A stretch of 64,000 nucleotides of DNA from the NCBI GenBank assembly GCA_003331425.1, contig QOOS01000002.1, positions 1-64,000 on the forward strand, written 5' to 3'. The translations under genes were made by a program, and so were the position numbers. Numbering within the stretch: position 1 is the first letter of the stretch; each line of letters opens with the position of its first letter. The notes beneath the pieces are model-generated. The model made no database searches and was not told the origin of the DNA. It worked only from the letters and a program-made list of their open reading frames with translations. The stretch is from Candidatus Nitrosopumilus sp. (GTDB lineage Archaea; Thermoproteota; Nitrososphaeria; Nitrososphaerales; Nitrosopumilaceae). Positions 8,181 to 46,040 of the stretch are shown in pieces.

Positions 8181-8282
8181 GCCGAGGTCGCCTAGCCTGG
8201 TAGGGCGCGCGCCTGGAAATTGTTTAACCATAAAGCGCGTTCTCGCAAGGGAACGAGAGTTCAAATCTCTCTCTCGGCGCCA
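8181..8282 (+). tRNA. tRNA-Ser(GGA), type II, with a ~15-nt intron in the anticodon loop and encoded CCA
   Basis: GCCGAGG acceptor pairs with TCTCGGC; T-arm GAGAG-TTCAAAT-CTCTC; long variable arm GTTCtcgcaaggGAAC; anticodon stem CGCGC/GCGCG enclosing CTGGAA+ATTGTTTAACCATAA+A; 3' GCCA. Confidence 0.88.
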
Positions 8283-36528: not shown

Positions 36529-37872
36529 TTGTTCAGTGATATTATGCAAAATCTTTCATTGCAATTGGATTCTAGTACAATTCAAAATTCTCTAAATTCT
36601 ACTGTTAACACTTTGATTGAACAAGTTACCCCCGAATTACCCCATACAAGTTTTGTAACTGATTTAGCTTTTATCATGATTATCGGTTCTATTGTCACAC
36701 TTGCGTTTTTCAAAATTAGACAACCTTTGATAATTGGATATCTGTTTGCAGGAATGCTACTTGGTCCATTGTCTCCTCTTTGGACTTGGCTTTTGCCTGA
36801 AAATAATTCCCCGTCTGAAATGTTAGATGGTGTTGGAATTTTATCAGATATTTCTGCGTTGCATTTGTTTTCAGAAATTGGTGTAATTTTGTTATTGTTT
36901 GTTATTGGAATTGAATTTCCATATGCAAAGATCAAATCTATTGGAAAAGTATCTGTTGGTGTAGGTACACTGGGACTATTTTCTACATTAGGTGTTTTGT
37001 TTTATGCTTCAACTGCACTTGGTTTACAATTTATGGATGCATTGTTTATTTCAGCAGCTTTATCAATTTCTAGTACTGCCATTATTGTTAAAATTTTAGA
37101 AGAGATGGGGAAAATCAAAAAAGAATCATCCATTCTTGTTTTAGGTATTTTGATTGTCGAAGACGTAATTGCTGTGATTTTAATTTCTACTCTACAATCT
37201 GTTGCTTTAGTTGGATCTGTATCTATAGAATCCATCGTAGTAGTTGTATTAGTTGCAATTGGGCTTATTGTTGGAACCTTTACTATTGGAACCAGAATAG
37301 TTCCTGGTTTAATTGATAGAGTTGCAGCTGCTGAAAATCGTGAAATTTTACTCCTAAGTGTTCTTGGTGTGTGCTTTGGCTATGCTTTGTTGGCAAATAT
37401 TGTTGGATTGTCCGTTGCAATTGGTGCCTTTTTAGCTGGTGTATTGGTAGCAGAATCAAAATCTGCTGAAGTTGCAAAATTGCTTTCCAGTCCAATCAAA
37501 GATATGTTTGTGGCCATATTTTTCATATCTGTAGGTGCTTTGATGGATGTTTCACAACTTGAAAATTATATTTTTATTGCAATTGCTCTGATTGCTGTTG
37601 CTACTGGTATGAAATTTGGTGGTAACATGTTGGGTAATTTTATCTTCCGACAAAAACGTGGAAAAGCACTTCGTTCAGCATTTACATTAGCAGCTCCTCG
37701 TGGTGAATTCTCAATTGTAATTGTAAAAGTTGGAGTTGATATTGGTGCAGTATCTGCATTCTTGTTCCCTCTAGTTGGTATTATATCGATAATTACTGCA
37801 TTCATTTCCCCATTCTTGGTTAAAGCAAGTGATAGAATTGTTCCTGCATTGGAGGAAAAAGAGGATGTCTGA
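36529..37872 (+). CDS. Cation:proton antiporter (CPA2/Kef-type)
   Basis: About 12 TM; LFLFVIGIEFPYAKIKSIGK-type region; SISSTAIIVKILEEMG. Confidence 0.9.
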   Translation: MFSDIMQNLSLQLDSSTIQNSLNSTVNTLIEQVTPELPHTSFVTDLAFIMIIGSIVTLAFFKIRQPLIIGYLFAGMLLGPLSPLWTWLLPENNSPSEMLDGVGILSDISALHLFSEIGVILLLFVIGIEFPYAKIKSIGKVSVGVGTLGLFSTLGVLFYASTALGLQFMDALFISAALSISSTAIIVKILEEMGKIKKESSILVLGILIVEDVIAVILISTLQSVALVGSVSIESIVVVVLVAIGLIVGTFTIGTRIVPGLIDRVAAAENREILLLSVLGVCFGYALLANIVGLSVAIGAFLAGVLVAESKSAEVAKLLSSPIKDMFVAIFFISVGALMDVSQLENYIFIAIALIAVATGMKFGGNMLGNFIFRQKRGKALRSAFTLAAPRGEFSIVIVKVGVDIGAVSAFLFPLVGIISIITAFISPFLVKASDRIVPALEEKEDV

Positions 37873-38293
37873 TGAATTACAAAAAATGTTAGACAGTGTT
37901 CATGATGGTATTACTACTTTTGATTTTGAGGGAAAAGAAACTCCATGTATTGTAATTGACGAAGAAAAATATGGTTTGATTCGTGCAAAAATTGAGGGTC
38001 AATCTTTTTCTGTTAACACTGATCTAAATATTTTACAAGATGGATTGGGAAATGTATTTGTAGAAATTGTTTTGACTTTTTCAGTAGGTAATATTTCAGA
38101 AAAGTTTCTTGTTAACGGAAAAACTGATTTGAGCTTTTTTGAAGTTTTAGCAAATACATCCATGCTTGTACTTAATTCACCTGAATCAAGATACGGTCAA
38201 GATAATGTCATTGCAATTCAATTACCTAGACCTGAAAAGGCTCATGATGCACTTGAAATCATAAAAAATGCATTAATTCCTAAAAATCAATAG
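37865..38293 (+). CDS. Hypothetical protein
   Basis: ATG at 37865, small overlap with antiporter gene; complete ORF. Confidence 0.65.
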   Translation: MSDELQKMLDSVHDGITTFDFEGKETPCIVIDEEKYGLIRAKIEGQSFSVNTDLNILQDGLGNVFVEIVLTFSVGNISEKFLVNGKTDLSFFEVLANTSMLVLNSPESRYGQDNVIAIQLPRPEKAHDALEIIKNALIPKNQ

Positions 38294-38314
38294 ATGGTGC
38301 AGTTACCGAGATTT
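38292..38314. repeat. att-like copy of the tRNA-Gly 3' end
   Basis: 17-bp exact match plus a further 5 of 6 bp to 45633-45655. Confidence 0.6.
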
Positions 38315-38428
38315 CATTGACGGGTGCAAATCCCCGAATTGATATGCCAGAATATTTGGAATCTTAGTGTAGAGAAAGGAAATTCGTATCAAGAACAGTT
38401 TACTTGGTAACTATGGAGCATTTTTTAT

Positions 38429-38500
38429 GATTTCTATATAGTAGACAACACACTACATGAACTAATCAGAATCAACATAAGTAAAAATTTAGAAAATACA
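38429..38500 (+). repeat. 72-bp promoter/leader repeat, copy 1
   Basis: gatttctatatagtagacaacacactacatgaactaatcagaatcaacataagtaaaaatttagaaaataca; identical to 38803-38874. Confidence 0.95.
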
Positions 38501-38508
38501 ATGGTATA

Positions 38509-38601
38509 ATGGAGAGTCAGAGTTTAGAACAGGACATTTCATGGCACGCGTTGGATGAGCACAGCTCATGTAAACGATTCTATATTTTTCTCACATGTTA
38601 A
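38509..38601 (+). CDS. Mini-ORF after repeat copy 1 (30 aa)
   Basis: MESQSLEQDISWHALDEHSSCKRFYIFLTC, in-frame stop TAA. Confidence 0.3.
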   Translation: MESQSLEQDISWHALDEHSSCKRFYIFLTC

Positions 38602-38657
38602 TTAATACACTGGTGTGTGAGACATTTTAATTGATTTTAAAAAACGAGTATTACATT

Positions 38658-38677
38658 GTCATATGTGATTATATGAC
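38658..38677. terminator. Hairpin GTCATAT-gtgatt-ATATGAC followed by a T run
   Basis: Perfect 7-bp inverted repeat, then gcagtgacttttttt. Confidence 0.4.
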
Positions 38678-38802
38678 GCAGTGACTTTTTTTATAAATTA
38701 ACGTAAATTTAGAATTATTTTTTATCTTCATTTAGTAAGTTAAACCAAAATTATGAATTTACCCTTTCTGAAATTCTATTTTCACTTTGATCAAGGTCTT
38801 TT

Positions 38803-38874
38803 GATTTCTATATAGTAGACAACACACTACATGAACTAATCAGAATCAACATAAGTAAAAATTTAGAAAATACA
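38803..38874 (+). repeat. 72-bp promoter/leader repeat, copy 2
   Basis: Identical to copy 1. Confidence 0.95.
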
Positions 38875-38878
38875 GTGT

Positions 38879-38971
38879 ATGGAAACAGAAAAAGAAAAAG
38901 AAATTCATTTACTACTAAAACAAATTCTTTATTACGACGATTTAGATGATGTTGACGATGAAGCAGATTGA
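38879..38971 (+). CDS. Mini-ORF after repeat copy 2 (30 aa, acidic C-terminus)
   Basis: METEKEKEIHLLLKQILYYDDLDDVDDEAD. Confidence 0.45.
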   Translation: METEKEKEIHLLLKQILYYDDLDDVDDEAD

Positions 38972-38975
38972 TTAT

Positions 38976-39038
38976 GTAGTAGACTATACACTACATGAAC
39001 TAATCAGAATCAAAATAAGTAAAAATTTAGAAAATACA
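38976..39038 (+). repeat. Promoter/leader repeat, copy 3 (diverged 5' end)
   Basis: gtagtagactatacactacatgaactaatcagaatcaaaataagtaaaaatttagaaaataca. Confidence 0.9.
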
Positions 39039-39042
39039 GTGT

Positions 39043-39111
39043 ATGGAAACAGAAAAAGAAAAAGAATTTCACGTTGATGATTTAGATGATGTTGACGATG
39101 AAGCAGATTGA
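39043..39111 (+). CDS. Mini-ORF after repeat copy 3 (22 aa), paralog of 38879-38971
   Basis: METEKEKEFHVDDLDDVDDEAD. Confidence 0.45.
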   Translation: METEKEKEFHVDDLDDVDDEAD

Positions 39112-39302
39112 TCATGGTTAGGTTCAGAAAATAGAATTTACCTGATAAAATATTCTCAAAACATTCTCATTATTTTCCCGTTTTAGGCACGAATTTGAGA
39201 ATTGTAAAATACGAATTTTGTTTATAATTACATAAATAAAAAAATTCTATATAGAAAAATAATGCAAAAAAAGTTTTTTAATTGTAAAAATGTATATGAA
39301 TC

Positions 39303-39644
39303 ATGTCCTCAAATCAATTTACAGAATTAGTAAAACAAGAAAAAGCAAAGATTAAAGCTGTTGAAGAAAAAATAAAAAATGCAAAAATTGAATTAAAAAA
39401 AGTCAAAACCGAGGCAAAAAAGAAAATCAGCGTAGCAAAAAGCGAAGAAAAGAAAAAACAAAAGGCTTCAAAAAAAATAGCAAAGCTTCAAGCAAGAAAG
39501 AATAGAATTGAGGCAAAAAAGAAACTACAAGACACAAAAAAACAACTCAAACAGACAAAAAAACAAGTAAAAAAAGAAGCAAAATCCAAAATTAGTGATG
39601 CAAAGAAGGTACTAAAACAAGTAAAAAAAGAAGCAAAGTCTTGA
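39303..39644 (+). CDS. Lysine-rich, histone-H1-like / coiled-coil basic protein
   Basis: About one-third Lys, KKQLKQTKKQVKKEAKSK repeats. Confidence 0.75.
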   Translation: MSSNQFTELVKQEKAKIKAVEEKIKNAKIELKKVKTEAKKKISVAKSEEKKKQKASKKIAKLQARKNRIEAKKKLQDTKKQLKQTKKQVKKEAKSKISDAKKVLKQVKKEAKS

Positions 39645-39648
39645 CTTA

Positions 39649-40416
39649 CTAAATTGTTGCAGTCGATAATGAATCTGCCAATTGGTGATAAATTTCACTT
39701 CGAATTTTTTTCTCTTTTGTGAGAAGAAATTCCAATTCAGATTCTTTTTTTGCATATTTTTTTAGAAAGTCAATAGTAATATCACAATCATGAATAGAAC
39801 CAAGCAATTTTTGAAATGTTTTCATACTTTCTATGACGTGTCTATATTTTCCAGTAGGATCAATTTCTAAGATATATCGAAGTTTTTTTGCAGTCTTCCT
39901 CATAGAATGTAATTCATCAATTTTAGATTCGTCTGATATTACAATTGGAATGTAGTTTTGAATTTTCGTAATTAGTGAAAAGATCTTTTTATCATGTTTC
40001 TGGATGATTTTTTCATCATTATTTTTTTTTAAATTTGAAAACTCCAATTTGGATATTTTTTCTGCATCCTTTAGAATTTTTTTGAGCTTTTTGTTCTTTT
40101 GATTAACAATTTTTTTTATGATTTTCGATTCTTTAGACAGTCCATTTTTCTGCAACCTCTTAATTATTACGTCCATATCTCGAATTGAACTATTTTTTTT
40201 AAACAATAATCTGTACAAAGATACAAAAATGTCTGTTTTTTTTCTTTTGCATGAATTTGGAAAAATAAAATACATTGCCTCTAATCTACGAATTGATGTA
40301 CGCAATTGATGGATTTGTTCTTCACCAGGTTCTGCTAAAAAATCATCTAGCCTGTTTTTTGACTGAACCTGTTTTTCATGAAAAATATTTTGAAAGTCAC
40401 TATTCTCATCACTCAT
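39649..40416 (-). CDS. CHAD domain protein
   Basis: HQLRTSIRRLEAMYFIF; SIRDMDVIIKRL; LHSMRKTAKKLRYILE; FQKLLGSIHDCDI. Confidence 0.88.
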   Translation of the reverse strand: MSDENSDFQNIFHEKQVQSKNRLDDFLAEPGEEQIHQLRTSIRRLEAMYFIFPNSCKRKKTDIFVSLYRLLFKKNSSIRDMDVIIKRLQKNGLSKESKIIKKIVNQKNKKLKKILKDAEKISKLEFSNLKKNNDEKIIQKHDKKIFSLITKIQNYIPIVISDESKIDELHSMRKTAKKLRYILEIDPTGKYRHVIESMKTFQKLLGSIHDCDITIDFLKKYAKKESELEFLLTKEKKIRSEIYHQLADSLSTATI

Positions 40417-41147
40417 GATACTTTAGAGAGAGATTTGCTAATCTGCTTTTCTAACCTTTTGTAAGTTTCTTCAGCAGAATAGTTTCCATTTACCAAGGTA
40501 AGGTTGAATTTCTTTTTTAGAACAACAAACTCTTTGGCAAGTTTTTGCTGGTATATGATAAAAGATTCAAACATATCGTCAGATATGCCCAAATCTGCAC
40601 CTGATTCATAATAATCAAGACTCTGTCTCTTTTCAAACACTCTGTGAACCAATGTGTAAGGATCTACATCTATGTAAAATGTCATGTCTGGAACAAGTGC
40701 AAAACTAAACAGGTCGTTTGACCACTTTCTTTTGATTCCTCTTATCGTGTTTCTGGCCATCAATGTGTAGATGTAGCGGTCAGCAAGAACTACGTAACCT
40801 GCTTGAAGTGCAGGAATAATTTTTTGTTCTAGTTGGTCTGCAAAATCAGCTGCATAAAATAAAGCAAGAGTTCTTTTTCCAAGTGAAACATTTCTTTTGG
40901 CTTCTAAGATTCCTTGACTGATAAGATCAGAACGATTTAGCCCAGTGTTCAATACAGCATAACCATCTGCTTCAAGCTTTGCAGTTAACATTTCGATTTG
41001 AGTACTTCTTCCAGATGCATCTGGACCTTCAATGACAATTAAGCTTCCAGAAATTTCCAAGTCTTTGATATAAGGTAATCCTCCAAACTTCTTCGTTCCA
41101 TACCATTTTGGTTTTCTGTTTTTAATTCCTCGTACCAAGTCTGCCAT
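40413..41147 (-). CDS. Thymidylate-kinase-like P-loop kinase, paralog 1
   Basis: LIVIEGPDASGRSTQIEML; LADRYIYTLMARN. Confidence 0.85.
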   Translation of the reverse strand: MADLVRGIKNRKPKWYGTKKFGGLPYIKDLEISGSLIVIEGPDASGRSTQIEMLTAKLEADGYAVLNTGLNRSDLISQGILEAKRNVSLGKRTLALFYAADFADQLEQKIIPALQAGYVVLADRYIYTLMARNTIRGIKRKWSNDLFSFALVPDMTFYIDVDPYTLVHRVFEKRQSLDYYESGADLGISDDMFESFIIYQQKLAKEFVVLKKKFNLTLVNGNYSAEETYKRLEKQISKSLSKVS

Positions 41148-41854
41148 TAGGGAACCTCCATTACTGTTTTCTTTTTCAATTTCTTTGGAAGAATTTTTCT
41201 TACTCTTTCTCTCATGACTTTCTGCTGCTCTTGGATTTGTTTCGTAGCATCCATAATGTAGAAATCTTCACGCTTACTCATCTCTTCGTATTGATCAACA
41301 ATTTTACTTTGAAAAATTCTAAAACTATCGTAGATGTCTTTTGATAAATTAAGATCCATTCCAGCTTCATAAAATTTCAGTTTTGGTCTGCCAGAAAGAA
41401 TTCGATCCATTGCAGTATCTAGTGGAACTCTAAAGTAAAATGCAACATCAGGCTTTATTGCAAAATCATATACTTTTCTTACCCAGTTGGGGTTACATCC
41501 CCTTGTAACATCCCTAGCATATGCAGTGTAGATGTATCTGTCTGCCAAAACAAAATACCCAGCTCGTAATAATGGCAATATATTCCGTTCAAATCTGTCT
41601 GCAAAATCAGTTGCATGAAGTAAGCTAAAAGTTGTGGGTGTGAGATTTTCTTTCTTTTTTCCTTTTGATGTGATTGATTTTACCATATTTGAGGAGTTCC
41701 ACTCGGTTCTAAACACCTCAAATCCATTATATCGTAACCATTTTTCCAATAAACGTAGTTGTGTAGACTTTCCAGAACCATCAACACCCTCTACAACTAT
41801 AAGCTTCCCAGGAATTCCGTGATTTTTTAGAGTTTTTTTTGCAGATAATGACAA
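41147..41854 (-). CDS. Thymidylate-kinase-like P-loop kinase, paralog 2
   Basis: LIVVEGVDGSGKSTQLRLLEKWL; LADRYIYTAYARDVTRG. Confidence 0.87.
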   Translation of the reverse strand: MSLSAKKTLKNHGIPGKLIVVEGVDGSGKSTQLRLLEKWLRYNGFEVFRTEWNSSNMVKSITSKGKKKENLTPTTFSLLHATDFADRFERNILPLLRAGYFVLADRYIYTAYARDVTRGCNPNWVRKVYDFAIKPDVAFYFRVPLDTAMDRILSGRPKLKFYEAGMDLNLSKDIYDSFRIFQSKIVDQYEEMSKREDFYIMDATKQIQEQQKVMRERVRKILPKKLKKKTVMEVP

Positions 41855-41910
41855 CTATGATTATACGAATAGCATAACTATCTATAAATTTTTTATATGT
41901 TTTATGAGAA

Positions 41911-43491
41911 CTACATAATCCCAATAGGTTTGAAGTGGGATTGTTTAGATGGTTCATAGTAAACCATCAATTTTACCTTGATTCCAAGAGTATTTTCTAA
42001 TTTTGTACAAGCCTGTTTTAGTAAAACTTCTGGAAAATGGTTTTTTGAAACATGTACTTCAAGATGTAGTGAATCTGGACTATCTGATTTGGGCTTAAGC
42101 AAGGTTCCAGTTTTGTGGAAAATGTCACAAAGTGAAACTACAGTGGATATTTTTTTGATAGTTTTCTTATCTGTTTGTTCTAAAATTTGCTCAAACCTAG
42201 AAATCAATGATTCTGCTTTCTTTTTCTTTTTTGAATAAATTATTGATAATGCAATAATTAATTGCTCTCTGTGAGATAGAATGCTATCGTCATCAAGTAT
42301 GGTATACAAAACATTGTCTACATCTCGAAATGAGGATAGAGTATCAATTTTTGAAATGGATTGTGCCAATAACACTCGTTCTTTGTCAGAAACCAGATTC
42401 ATCGAAAATAACAGCCTAACCAAATCTTCTACATATTCAGACAGTACATCAGGCTGACATGATAGATGAATGAGTTCTTCTACATGAACTACGTCTATTT
42501 CATGTTTGGAAAATTCTTGTGGATATTGTAATGATAATGATAAAGTCCCTTCTCTGAGACCTTGGGCACTGACAATCAGAGAAGGGAAGCTAAGTTTTTT
42601 CATTAATTCGGAAATAACGATAGATCCTGCCTTAATTGTATCAGATCTACTTCCCCCAATCGATTCAATTTTTGAAATTTTTTCAGTATTTTGATTCAAT
42701 AATTCCGTGGCAATGTTGTCCAGAGGTTCTAAACCTAAAGAAAAATTGTGTAATTTTTTGAGAGGGTAGTTGATTTTTTCTTGATTGTATTTGGCTATTG
42801 CCCTAAGAACGCCGCCCACTCCTACCAAAACCACGTCATCAGAATCAGAAATGCCTAAAAATTCTCTAGTAGGTAACTCCTTTTGAACAAATTCTTTGAT
42901 TTTTGAAATTGTTTTTTCAGAAAATTCTGAATCGTTTGAAAATTGTTGTGTTAATCGCAAGGAGCCCAAAGGTAAAGAGATTACTTTTTGAATTTCAAAA
43001 TTTTTTGAAGAGACTATCTCTAGACTTCCACCCCCAATATCAAAAAACACTGTAGATGGTAAATTCAATGAACGAATGGCACCTGCATGTGAGTAAATAG
43101 CTTCTTCATGTTCTGATAAAATCTTGAAATTAAATCCTGTCTCTTTTCGAATTTGGTCAATAAAATCTACGTTATTTTTGGCATCTCTTACTGCACTGGT
43201 AGCTACAGCTAGAACATAATCAATTTGTTCAAAGTCAATAATACTCCTAAATAATTTAAGAGACTCGATGGTTTTTTCTATATGGCTTTGTTGAATGACT
43301 TCATCAACTAGGCCTTCAGCAAGTTTGATGCGAGATGATTCTTGATGATATGGTTTGTATGTATTTTGAGAATCAACATTGTAGTTTACCATTTTAACTG
43401 AATTAGAACCCAAATCAATTACTGATGCTTTTCCAGTTCCGTCTCTAATATTTGGGAATTTTTTCAATCCGTTGGTTTTCTTCAAGTTCAT
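41911..43491 (-). CDS. Ppx/GppA exopolyphosphatase family protein
   Basis: ASVIDLGSNSVKMVNYN; FFDIGGGSLEIVSS; C-terminal helical HD-like region. Confidence 0.9.
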   Translation of the reverse strand: MNLKKTNGLKKFPNIRDGTGKASVIDLGSNSVKMVNYNVDSQNTYKPYHQESSRIKLAEGLVDEVIQQSHIEKTIESLKLFRSIIDFEQIDYVLAVATSAVRDAKNNVDFIDQIRKETGFNFKILSEHEEAIYSHAGAIRSLNLPSTVFFDIGGGSLEIVSSKNFEIQKVISLPLGSLRLTQQFSNDSEFSEKTISKIKEFVQKELPTREFLGISDSDDVVLVGVGGVLRAIAKYNQEKINYPLKKLHNFSLGLEPLDNIATELLNQNTEKISKIESIGGSRSDTIKAGSIVISELMKKLSFPSLIVSAQGLREGTLSLSLQYPQEFSKHEIDVVHVEELIHLSCQPDVLSEYVEDLVRLLFSMNLVSDKERVLLAQSISKIDTLSSFRDVDNVLYTILDDDSILSHREQLIIALSIIYSKKKKKAESLISRFEQILEQTDKKTIKKISTVVSLCDIFHKTGTLLKPKSDSPDSLHLEVHVSKNHFPEVLLKQACTKLENTLGIKVKLMVYYEPSKQSHFKPIGIM

Positions 43492-43523
43492 TAATTTATT
43501 CTCATTGAATTAAAAAAAATTAT

Positions 43524-44027
43524 CTATCTGCATAATTTCTTAAGTTGTTTTGGAGTCATAATGCTTCTAAGGGATCCAGATATTTTGCCTTTGGCAATGT
43601 TGCATATAATATGTACAAGACCTCCCTTTTTTAATGAAATGTCAACTGTGCCATCATTAGATATTATTTTGGAAATTAGATCTGTCAAATGAGGTTCATG
43701 TCCTACCAGCATAATAGATGAATCAGGTTTTAACGTAGTTAATTTTTTAACAGTTTTCTCTGTATCAATTTCAGGTTTTAATTCATTCCAAATTTTGATG
43801 GATTTTTTTTTACTTTTAACATGTTTGATGATAATTTCTGCTGTTTGTTTTGCACGGATCAAAGGGCTTGAAATGATGTCATCTACATCAATTTCCAAAT
43901 TTTTTATTGCTTTAGCAATACAACATAGTTCCTTTTTACCTACTTCAGTTAATTCCCTTTTGGAATCCCCTGCAAAATTTTGTGTATGTTCTTGAGCTTT
44001 TCCATGTCGCAGTATGTATAATTCCAT
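43524..44027 (-). CDS. sixA: SixA-type phosphohistidine phosphatase (histidine phosphatase superfamily)
   Basis: MELYILRHGKAQEH; SSPLIRAKQTAEI; LVGHEPHLTDL. Confidence 0.9.
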   Translation of the reverse strand: MELYILRHGKAQEHTQNFAGDSKRELTEVGKKELCCIAKAIKNLEIDVDDIISSPLIRAKQTAEIIIKHVKSKKKSIKIWNELKPEIDTEKTVKKLTTLKPDSSIMLVGHEPHLTDLISKIISNDGTVDISLKKGGLVHIICNIAKGKISGSLRSIMTPKQLKKLCR

Positions 44028-44088
44028 ACAATTCTTTGAATGATTAGTTATTTGATTGATGAGGTGTTATTTTGTGTAATCTATATAG

Positions 44089-44268
44089 AATTTTACAAGA
44101 TACGGTTCTTTTTATCCATGCAGATATTGTGAAAACAAATTACATAGTTTCTCAAACTGTCCTAAATGCCATATATCATACCATGAAATTTGTCTTAATT
44201 GCAGAAGAAAATGTTTATCAAAATATTACGACCATAGTTTTTTCCAAAAAATAAACTCCATGTGTTAA
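44089..44268 (+). pseudogene. Zinc-ribbon ORF without a recognisable start codon; homologous to 60411-60614
   Basis: Manual frame: RYGSFYPCRYCENKLHSFSNCPKCHISYHEICLNCRRKCLSKYYDHSFFQKINSMC; the ORF-track call at 44072 is another frame. Confidence 0.5.
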
Positions 44269-45593: not shown

Positions 45594-45635
45594 TAAAAAT
45601 AATTCATACTTTGTCACGGTACTTAAGTCCAGAGA

Positions 45636-45712
45636 TGGTGCAGTTACCGGGATTTGAACCCGGGTCACGTACTTGGCAAGCACGAGTACTAACCAGACTG
45701 TACTATAACTGC
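45636..45712 (-). tRNA. tRNA-Gly(GCC), CCA encoded
   Basis: GCAGTTA/TAACTGC acceptor; anticodon loop TTGCCAA; T-arm CCGGGTTCAAATCCCGG; ACCA 3' end. Confidence 0.93.
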
Positions 45713-45776: not shown

Positions 45777-46040
45777 ATGGATGAGATTCTTTTAAAGAAA
45801 ATTGAACAAAAAATTCAAGATAGCATTTCCAATAAAGATGATATTAAGGAATTGATTAAACTACTTTCTACAATAGATGGTTCCAAATCGTTCGCGCTGG
45901 GAATTGTAGTGGGGAGATTGTACAATACTTTTTTCTATCAAAGTAAAAGAATCCTTAAGCGAGAACCAACTAAGAAAGAATTTGAAGATTTTTTAAAATA
46001 TATTGAAAATAAGAAATCTGATTTAGAACGTTTATGGTGA
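45777..46040 (+). CDS. Hypothetical protein (87 aa)
   Basis: Complete ORF after tRNA-Gly. Confidence 0.6.
   Translation: MDEILLKKIEQKIQDSISNKDDIKELIKLLSTIDGSKSFALGIVVGRLYNTFFYQSKRILKREPTKKEFEDFLKYIENKKSDLERLW

Follow-up and report, generated by a model that had tools for sequence, protein, structure and literature searches.

We have examined a repeat array at positions 38429-39111 of a 64,000-nucleotide (nt) stretch (the window) of contig QOOS01000002.1, from an ammonia-oxidizing marine archaeon of the genus Nitrosopumilus. The array is probably a group of decaying copies of a single Nitrosopumilus orphan microgene, produced by tandem duplication, recombined with one another and situated in a mobile region. 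It contains three leaders (W1, W2 and W3), and a further copy, C10, lies on another contig of the same genome. From their sequences, C10 is probably the functional copy, and W1-W3 would be pseudogenes or weakened copies. The features of the array, including its small open reading frames (ORFs), are as follows.

38402-38430, forward strand: vestige of a zinc-finger-like gene, of which the 3' end (...LVTMEHFL, then stop) is recognizable and the part upstream has decayed
38429-38500, forward strand: leader copy W1, with the TATA-like sequence CTATATAG at 38434-38441, a variable spacer, and a conserved part resembling a 5' untranslated region (UTR) from about 38461
38509-38601, forward strand: ORF1 (MESQSL...), a spurious reading frame in 3'-flanking sequence; the true micro-ORF is deleted from W1
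38803-38877, forward strand: leader copy W2
38879-38971, forward strand: micro-ORF 2, METEKEKEIHLLLKQILYYDDLDDVDDEAD, with a 24-nt in-frame insertion and loss of the C-terminal DFWFE
38971-39041, forward strand: leader copy W3, a product of tandem duplication, joined at its 5' end to the terminus of micro-ORF 2
39043-39111, forward strand: micro-ORF 3, METEKEKEFHVDDLDDVDDEAD, with loss of the C-terminal DFWFE

The original prediction for this region described near-identical leaders, each followed by a different micro-ORF, and proposed a constant regulatory module with variable micro-proteins. The near-identity is borne out: W1 matches W2 exactly over 72 bp and differs from it at 1/75 nt, and W3 differs from W2 at 9/75 positions, chiefly within its first 6 nt, where the junction of the tandem duplication lies. 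A 41-nt leader probe gave two matches in the window, with none expected from shuffled sequence; the repeat is far beyond chance. All three ORFs are present as well. Their supposed diversity holds in part, in that ORF1 is unrelated to the others, but ORF2 and ORF3 belong to one family (METEKEK...DDLDDVDDEAD).

A genome-wide search and a comparison with relatives, both suggested at that time, were productive. Four leader matches were obtained in the genome of the window, one of them being C10 (C10:98252-98394), in which an intact leader precedes a full micro-ORF encoding METEKEKEFHVDDLDDVDDETDFWFE. Among 96 Nitrosopumilus genomes searched, the microprotein was found in that genome (G000) and, together with the leader, in four relatives (G011, G070, G085 and G100), with best profile E-values down to 2.6e-17. 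A sequence model of the leader gave strong matches (at least 75 bits) in the same five genomes only, all others scoring 21 bits or less. The micro-ORF follows every distinct leader copy except W1, and the leader copies outside the array all precede the same acidic microprotein, contrary to the idea of a constant module with variable products. The repeat unit is larger than the leader and comprises leader and micro-ORF together, because the two always travel together elsewhere.

Full-length microproteins are acidic, 26-28 amino acids long, and conform to the consensus METE(I/T/K)(K/E)K[LT](E/Q)FH(V/D)DDLDD(V/C)DDE(T/P)DFWFE; that of G070 is an in-frame expanded form. An order-wide profile search (401 genomes) returned, outside the genus, only weak matches inside large unrelated ORFs, and a genome-collection scan found only two loci, both in the set already known (Nitrosopumilus sp. 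NIOZ-UU110 and BACL13). The microprotein matched no Pfam or NCBIfam family, and nothing was found in phage and plasmid collections or in viral contigs searched with the leader pattern and with the microprotein and zinc-finger profiles. The microgene is best read, on these sequence comparisons, as an orphan restricted to Nitrosopumilus. It resembles other lineage-restricted orphan microgene families in being short, taxonomically restricted and devoid of database homologues, and in having paralogues and pseudogenes. It differs from them in that its promoter and 5' UTR are at least as conserved, at the nucleotide level, as its coding part.

The micro-ORF is likely to be coding, since the reading frame is open in every full-length copy, the indels relative to C10 (6, 24 and 42 nt) are each a multiple of three, and the proportion of nonsynonymous differences (pN) is below that of synonymous differences (pS) in all pairs except C10-W3, which differ by a single change. 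Side-by-side reading of the sequences indicates that ORF2 and ORF3 are both truncated: 17 nt of C10 (within GATTTTTGGTTTGAATGAGTTGATTATC) are missing, so that the invariant DFWFE tail is lost, and the tandem-duplication junction lies directly behind this deletion. No similarity was found between ORF1 and the micro-ORF. The ORF1 region resembles the G070 sequence directly 3' of the micro-ORF stop codon (local score 21; shuffle maximum 17; 0/500 shuffles as high), and W1 is therefore a leader from which the micro-ORF has been deleted. The G070 counterpart of the ORF1 reading, MGVRV, closes after five codons.

As read from the sequences, W1 is a mosaic, with an upstream flank of C10 type, a leader of W2/G070 type and a 3' flank of G070 type, and W3 combines a leader spacer and ORF of C10 type with an end of W2 type. 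These mosaics suggest recombination between copies. Of the recombination-driven or cassette-like system first envisaged, the repeated leader module and the recombined copies stand, but there is no variable payload. Copies probably multiply and swap flanks by homologous (unequal) recombination between the long identical leaders.

A 7.3-kb segment (island), framed by two 22-nt repeats, is inserted at a glycine transfer RNA gene (tRNA-Gly), and the array occupies one edge of it.

38293-38314, no strand assigned: att-like (attL-like) 22-nt copy of the tRNA-Gly 3' end (AGATGGTGCAGTTACCGAGATTT), the left boundary of the insert; a direct repeat matching 45634-45655 at 21/22 positions
45634-45712, reverse strand: intact tRNA-Gly (GCC); it includes the attR-like repeat 45634-45655, the right boundary of the insert

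Sister genomes have the empty site, in which the counterpart of the gene at 37865-38293 is followed by a single uninterrupted tRNA-Gly and then by the homologue of window positions 45777-46040. Within the island, the block 39194-44097 shows 88% identity to a locus of another genome (G098) that has neither the tRNA nor the array; the array is therefore not an inherent part of this block. Integrated elements of Thaumarchaeota typically have att sites at tRNA 3' ends, with a median att repeat of 17 bp and a tRNA target in 39/68 elements (PMC6563490). The segment resembles them in its att-like repeats at a tRNA 3' end, its insertion in the 3'-distal part of the tRNA, the shortness of the repeats and the empty site in relatives. 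It differs in that no recombinase or replication gene was identified in it, and no integrase, transposase or other mobility gene was recognized among those island ORFs that were read or scanned against Pfam. An integron-like cassette array would have different genes behind a constant element, and a recombination site with a dedicated integrase nearby; here ORF2 and ORF3 encode one and the same protein, ORF1 comes from 3' flank, and no integrase was found among those same ORFs.

The leader itself is under constraint, because leaders other than W3 diverge by 1-15%, compared with 60-74% at synonymous sites of the adjacent zinc-finger genes (most pairs). Variable sites make up 0/10 of the TATA region, 6/10 of the spacer and 9/52 of the part that follows (Fisher p=0.009, post-hoc, the partition of sites having been chosen after inspection of the data), and the TATA-like sequence is unchanged in all copies except W3. 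This anatomy fits a TATA-box promoter followed by a conserved, unstructured 5' UTR. The usual archaeal spacing between TATA box and transcription start places the start near position 33-35 of the leader. The predicted start would lie about 25-27 nt past the TATA box, leaving a UTR of about 43 nt.

In G011 (C49), G085 and G100, the unit starts at the stop codon of an intact 43-amino-acid zinc-finger-like gene, this stop codon directly preceding the TATA box. The G085 protein is MFVPCTLCKKIMPFNERRIRNQHDYHRKCVWHVAHLIRLENFF. Across 11 family members C5, C8, H26 and C29 are invariant (pattern C-x2-C-x17-H-x2-C), but position 5 is F in the copy from G100. The 3'-end remnant upstream of W1 aligns locally to the intact G070 gene with a score of 19 (shuffle maximum 17; 0/500), and the same remnant precedes C10 (score 30; 0/500 shuffles). 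The upstream flank of W2 was also considered as a zinc-finger remnant and rejected (score 8 against G085, 493/500 shuffles); it is weakly shared with G070. The family occurs in 36/96 genomes, mostly without the microprotein, and matched no Pfam or NCBIfam family. A profile search of PDB gave non-significant matches only, chiefly to PARP1, LIM and PHD fingers, and an AlphaFold model of the protein alone was not informative (mean predicted local distance difference test score 74; predicted template modeling score 0.43). Several copies of the family (L057-L086 and others) occur per genome; some have internal stop codons, and some are apparently arranged in tandem pairs (G028, G114, G116 and G117). 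Zinc-finger micro-proteins are known in archaea from the C(P)XCG proteins of Haloferax volcanii (PMC6562870, PMC11241148). Like these, the 43-amino-acid protein is archaeal, predicted to bind zinc, shorter than 70 amino acids and present as many paralogues per genome; unlike them, it has C5, C8, H26 and C29 rather than two C(P)XCG motifs, and the acidic microprotein has no zinc-binding motif.

We infer that the microgene arose downstream of the zinc-finger-like gene and probably worked with its protein. The most economical guess is that the acidic peptide would bind or modulate a nucleic-acid-binding partner, either the basic zinc-finger protein or some other; we favor this role because the peptide is acidic, has a history beside that protein and has a conserved tail of aromatic and acidic residues. 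More specifically, the 43-amino-acid protein and the DFWFE-tailed peptide of 26-28 amino acids, with its own conserved promoter and UTR, may form an undescribed Nitrosopumilus micro-module. Within it the peptide would regulate either the finger protein or a target bound to nucleic acid, and the module would multiply and decay in mobile regions; we offer this fuller scheme tentatively and consider it doubtful.

Several observations weigh against the reading of the array as decayed copies of a protein-coding microgene with a history beside the zinc finger. Counts of TATA-like words are highest at -30 to -26 relative to the start codon (18 versus about 2 per bin in 88 upstream regions from the window's genome and one relative), and most genes are therefore leaderless; a UTR of about 43 nt would be an unusual exception. 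In the micro-ORF, variable sites are not in excess at third codon positions (5/3/4 for the three positions). The genome of the window has no intact zinc-finger copy, only weak matches, and in G070 the zinc-finger gene is not adjacent to the micro-ORF.

Among the alternatives, the zinc-finger gene and the acidic micro-ORF could constitute a functional two-gene module, either a toxin-antitoxin or a regulator/anti-regulator pair, that is broken in the window's genome. Their strict adjacency in three relatives, the zinc-finger remnants before W1 and C10, and the charge contrast between basic finger and acidic peptide are all consistent with this. Each gene nevertheless also occurs without the other, as the wide distribution of the zinc-finger family illustrates. 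Obligate pairing is unlikely, because an intact micro-ORF (C10) is kept in a genome that has no intact zinc-finger partner, and we regard such a module as unlikely overall.

An incidental ORF, with the leader (alone or together with that ORF) acting as a regulatory or small RNA, seems quite unlikely. High conservation of the leader would fit, as would the lack of third-position bias and the lower divergence of synonymous sites in the micro-ORF than in the adjacent zinc-finger gene. However, no stable fold was found for the UTR (z-scores 0.29, 1.71 and 0.73) and the leader had no match in Rfam, so the earlier suggestion of a structured noncoding RNA receives no backing. The frame-keeping indels, the frame kept open in full-length copies and the pN and pS values also speak against an incidental ORF. 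A further alternative, that leader and ORF together make up a small mobile element of their own, either cassette-like or akin to a miniature inverted-repeat transposable element (MITE, an alternative raised in the original prediction) and inserting at defined sites, is highly improbable. Copies do occupy different contexts within one genome, their flanks are mosaic, and the array is located at the margin of an inserted segment framed by att-like repeats. However, no terminal inverted repeats were found around the unit, examination of island ORFs identified no homologue of a transposase or integrase, the viral, phage and plasmid collections gave nothing, and the C10, W1, G011, G085 and G100 copies share a 5' boundary at the zinc-finger 3' end or its remnant, which indicates inherited linkage.

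Under our preferred reading of a decaying orphan microgene, the array exposes a new family of very small proteins, restricted to one genus of abundant marine ammonia oxidizers and linked to a widespread 43-amino-acid zinc-finger-like family. Automatic annotation is likely to miss such genes. Similar scans call for caution, as duplication and decay of a single microgene can mimic a cassette of one promoter with many micro-proteins.

The genes of the 7.3-kb segment encode a CHAD protein, two thymidylate-kinase-like proteins, Ppx/GppA, a histidine phosphatase, two Lys-rich proteins, PurE and NUMOD3, and the segment is possibly a polyphosphate cluster. The thymidylate-kinase-like pair occurs in 9/96 genomes only. 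The array also encloses a dispersed repeat of a separate family.

38632-38692, forward strand: repeat B, about 62 nt (CTGATTTTAAAAAACGAGTATTACATTGTCATATGTGATTTTAGGGCGGAGTGACTTTTTTT), ending in a T-run; present in 8/96 genomes, several copies at 88-97% identity

Repeat B is intergenic, with up to six copies per genome (L030-L047), several of them just 3' of genes (cupredoxin, UspA), and it also occurs near zinc-finger genes in G006 and G070. No compensatory changes were seen in its fold; it is possibly a terminator-like or tiny-RNA element. Elsewhere in the window, a tRNA at 8181-8279 was found by Rfam and missed by ARAGORN; it probably contains an intron, given its length of 99 nt and its detection by Rfam only.
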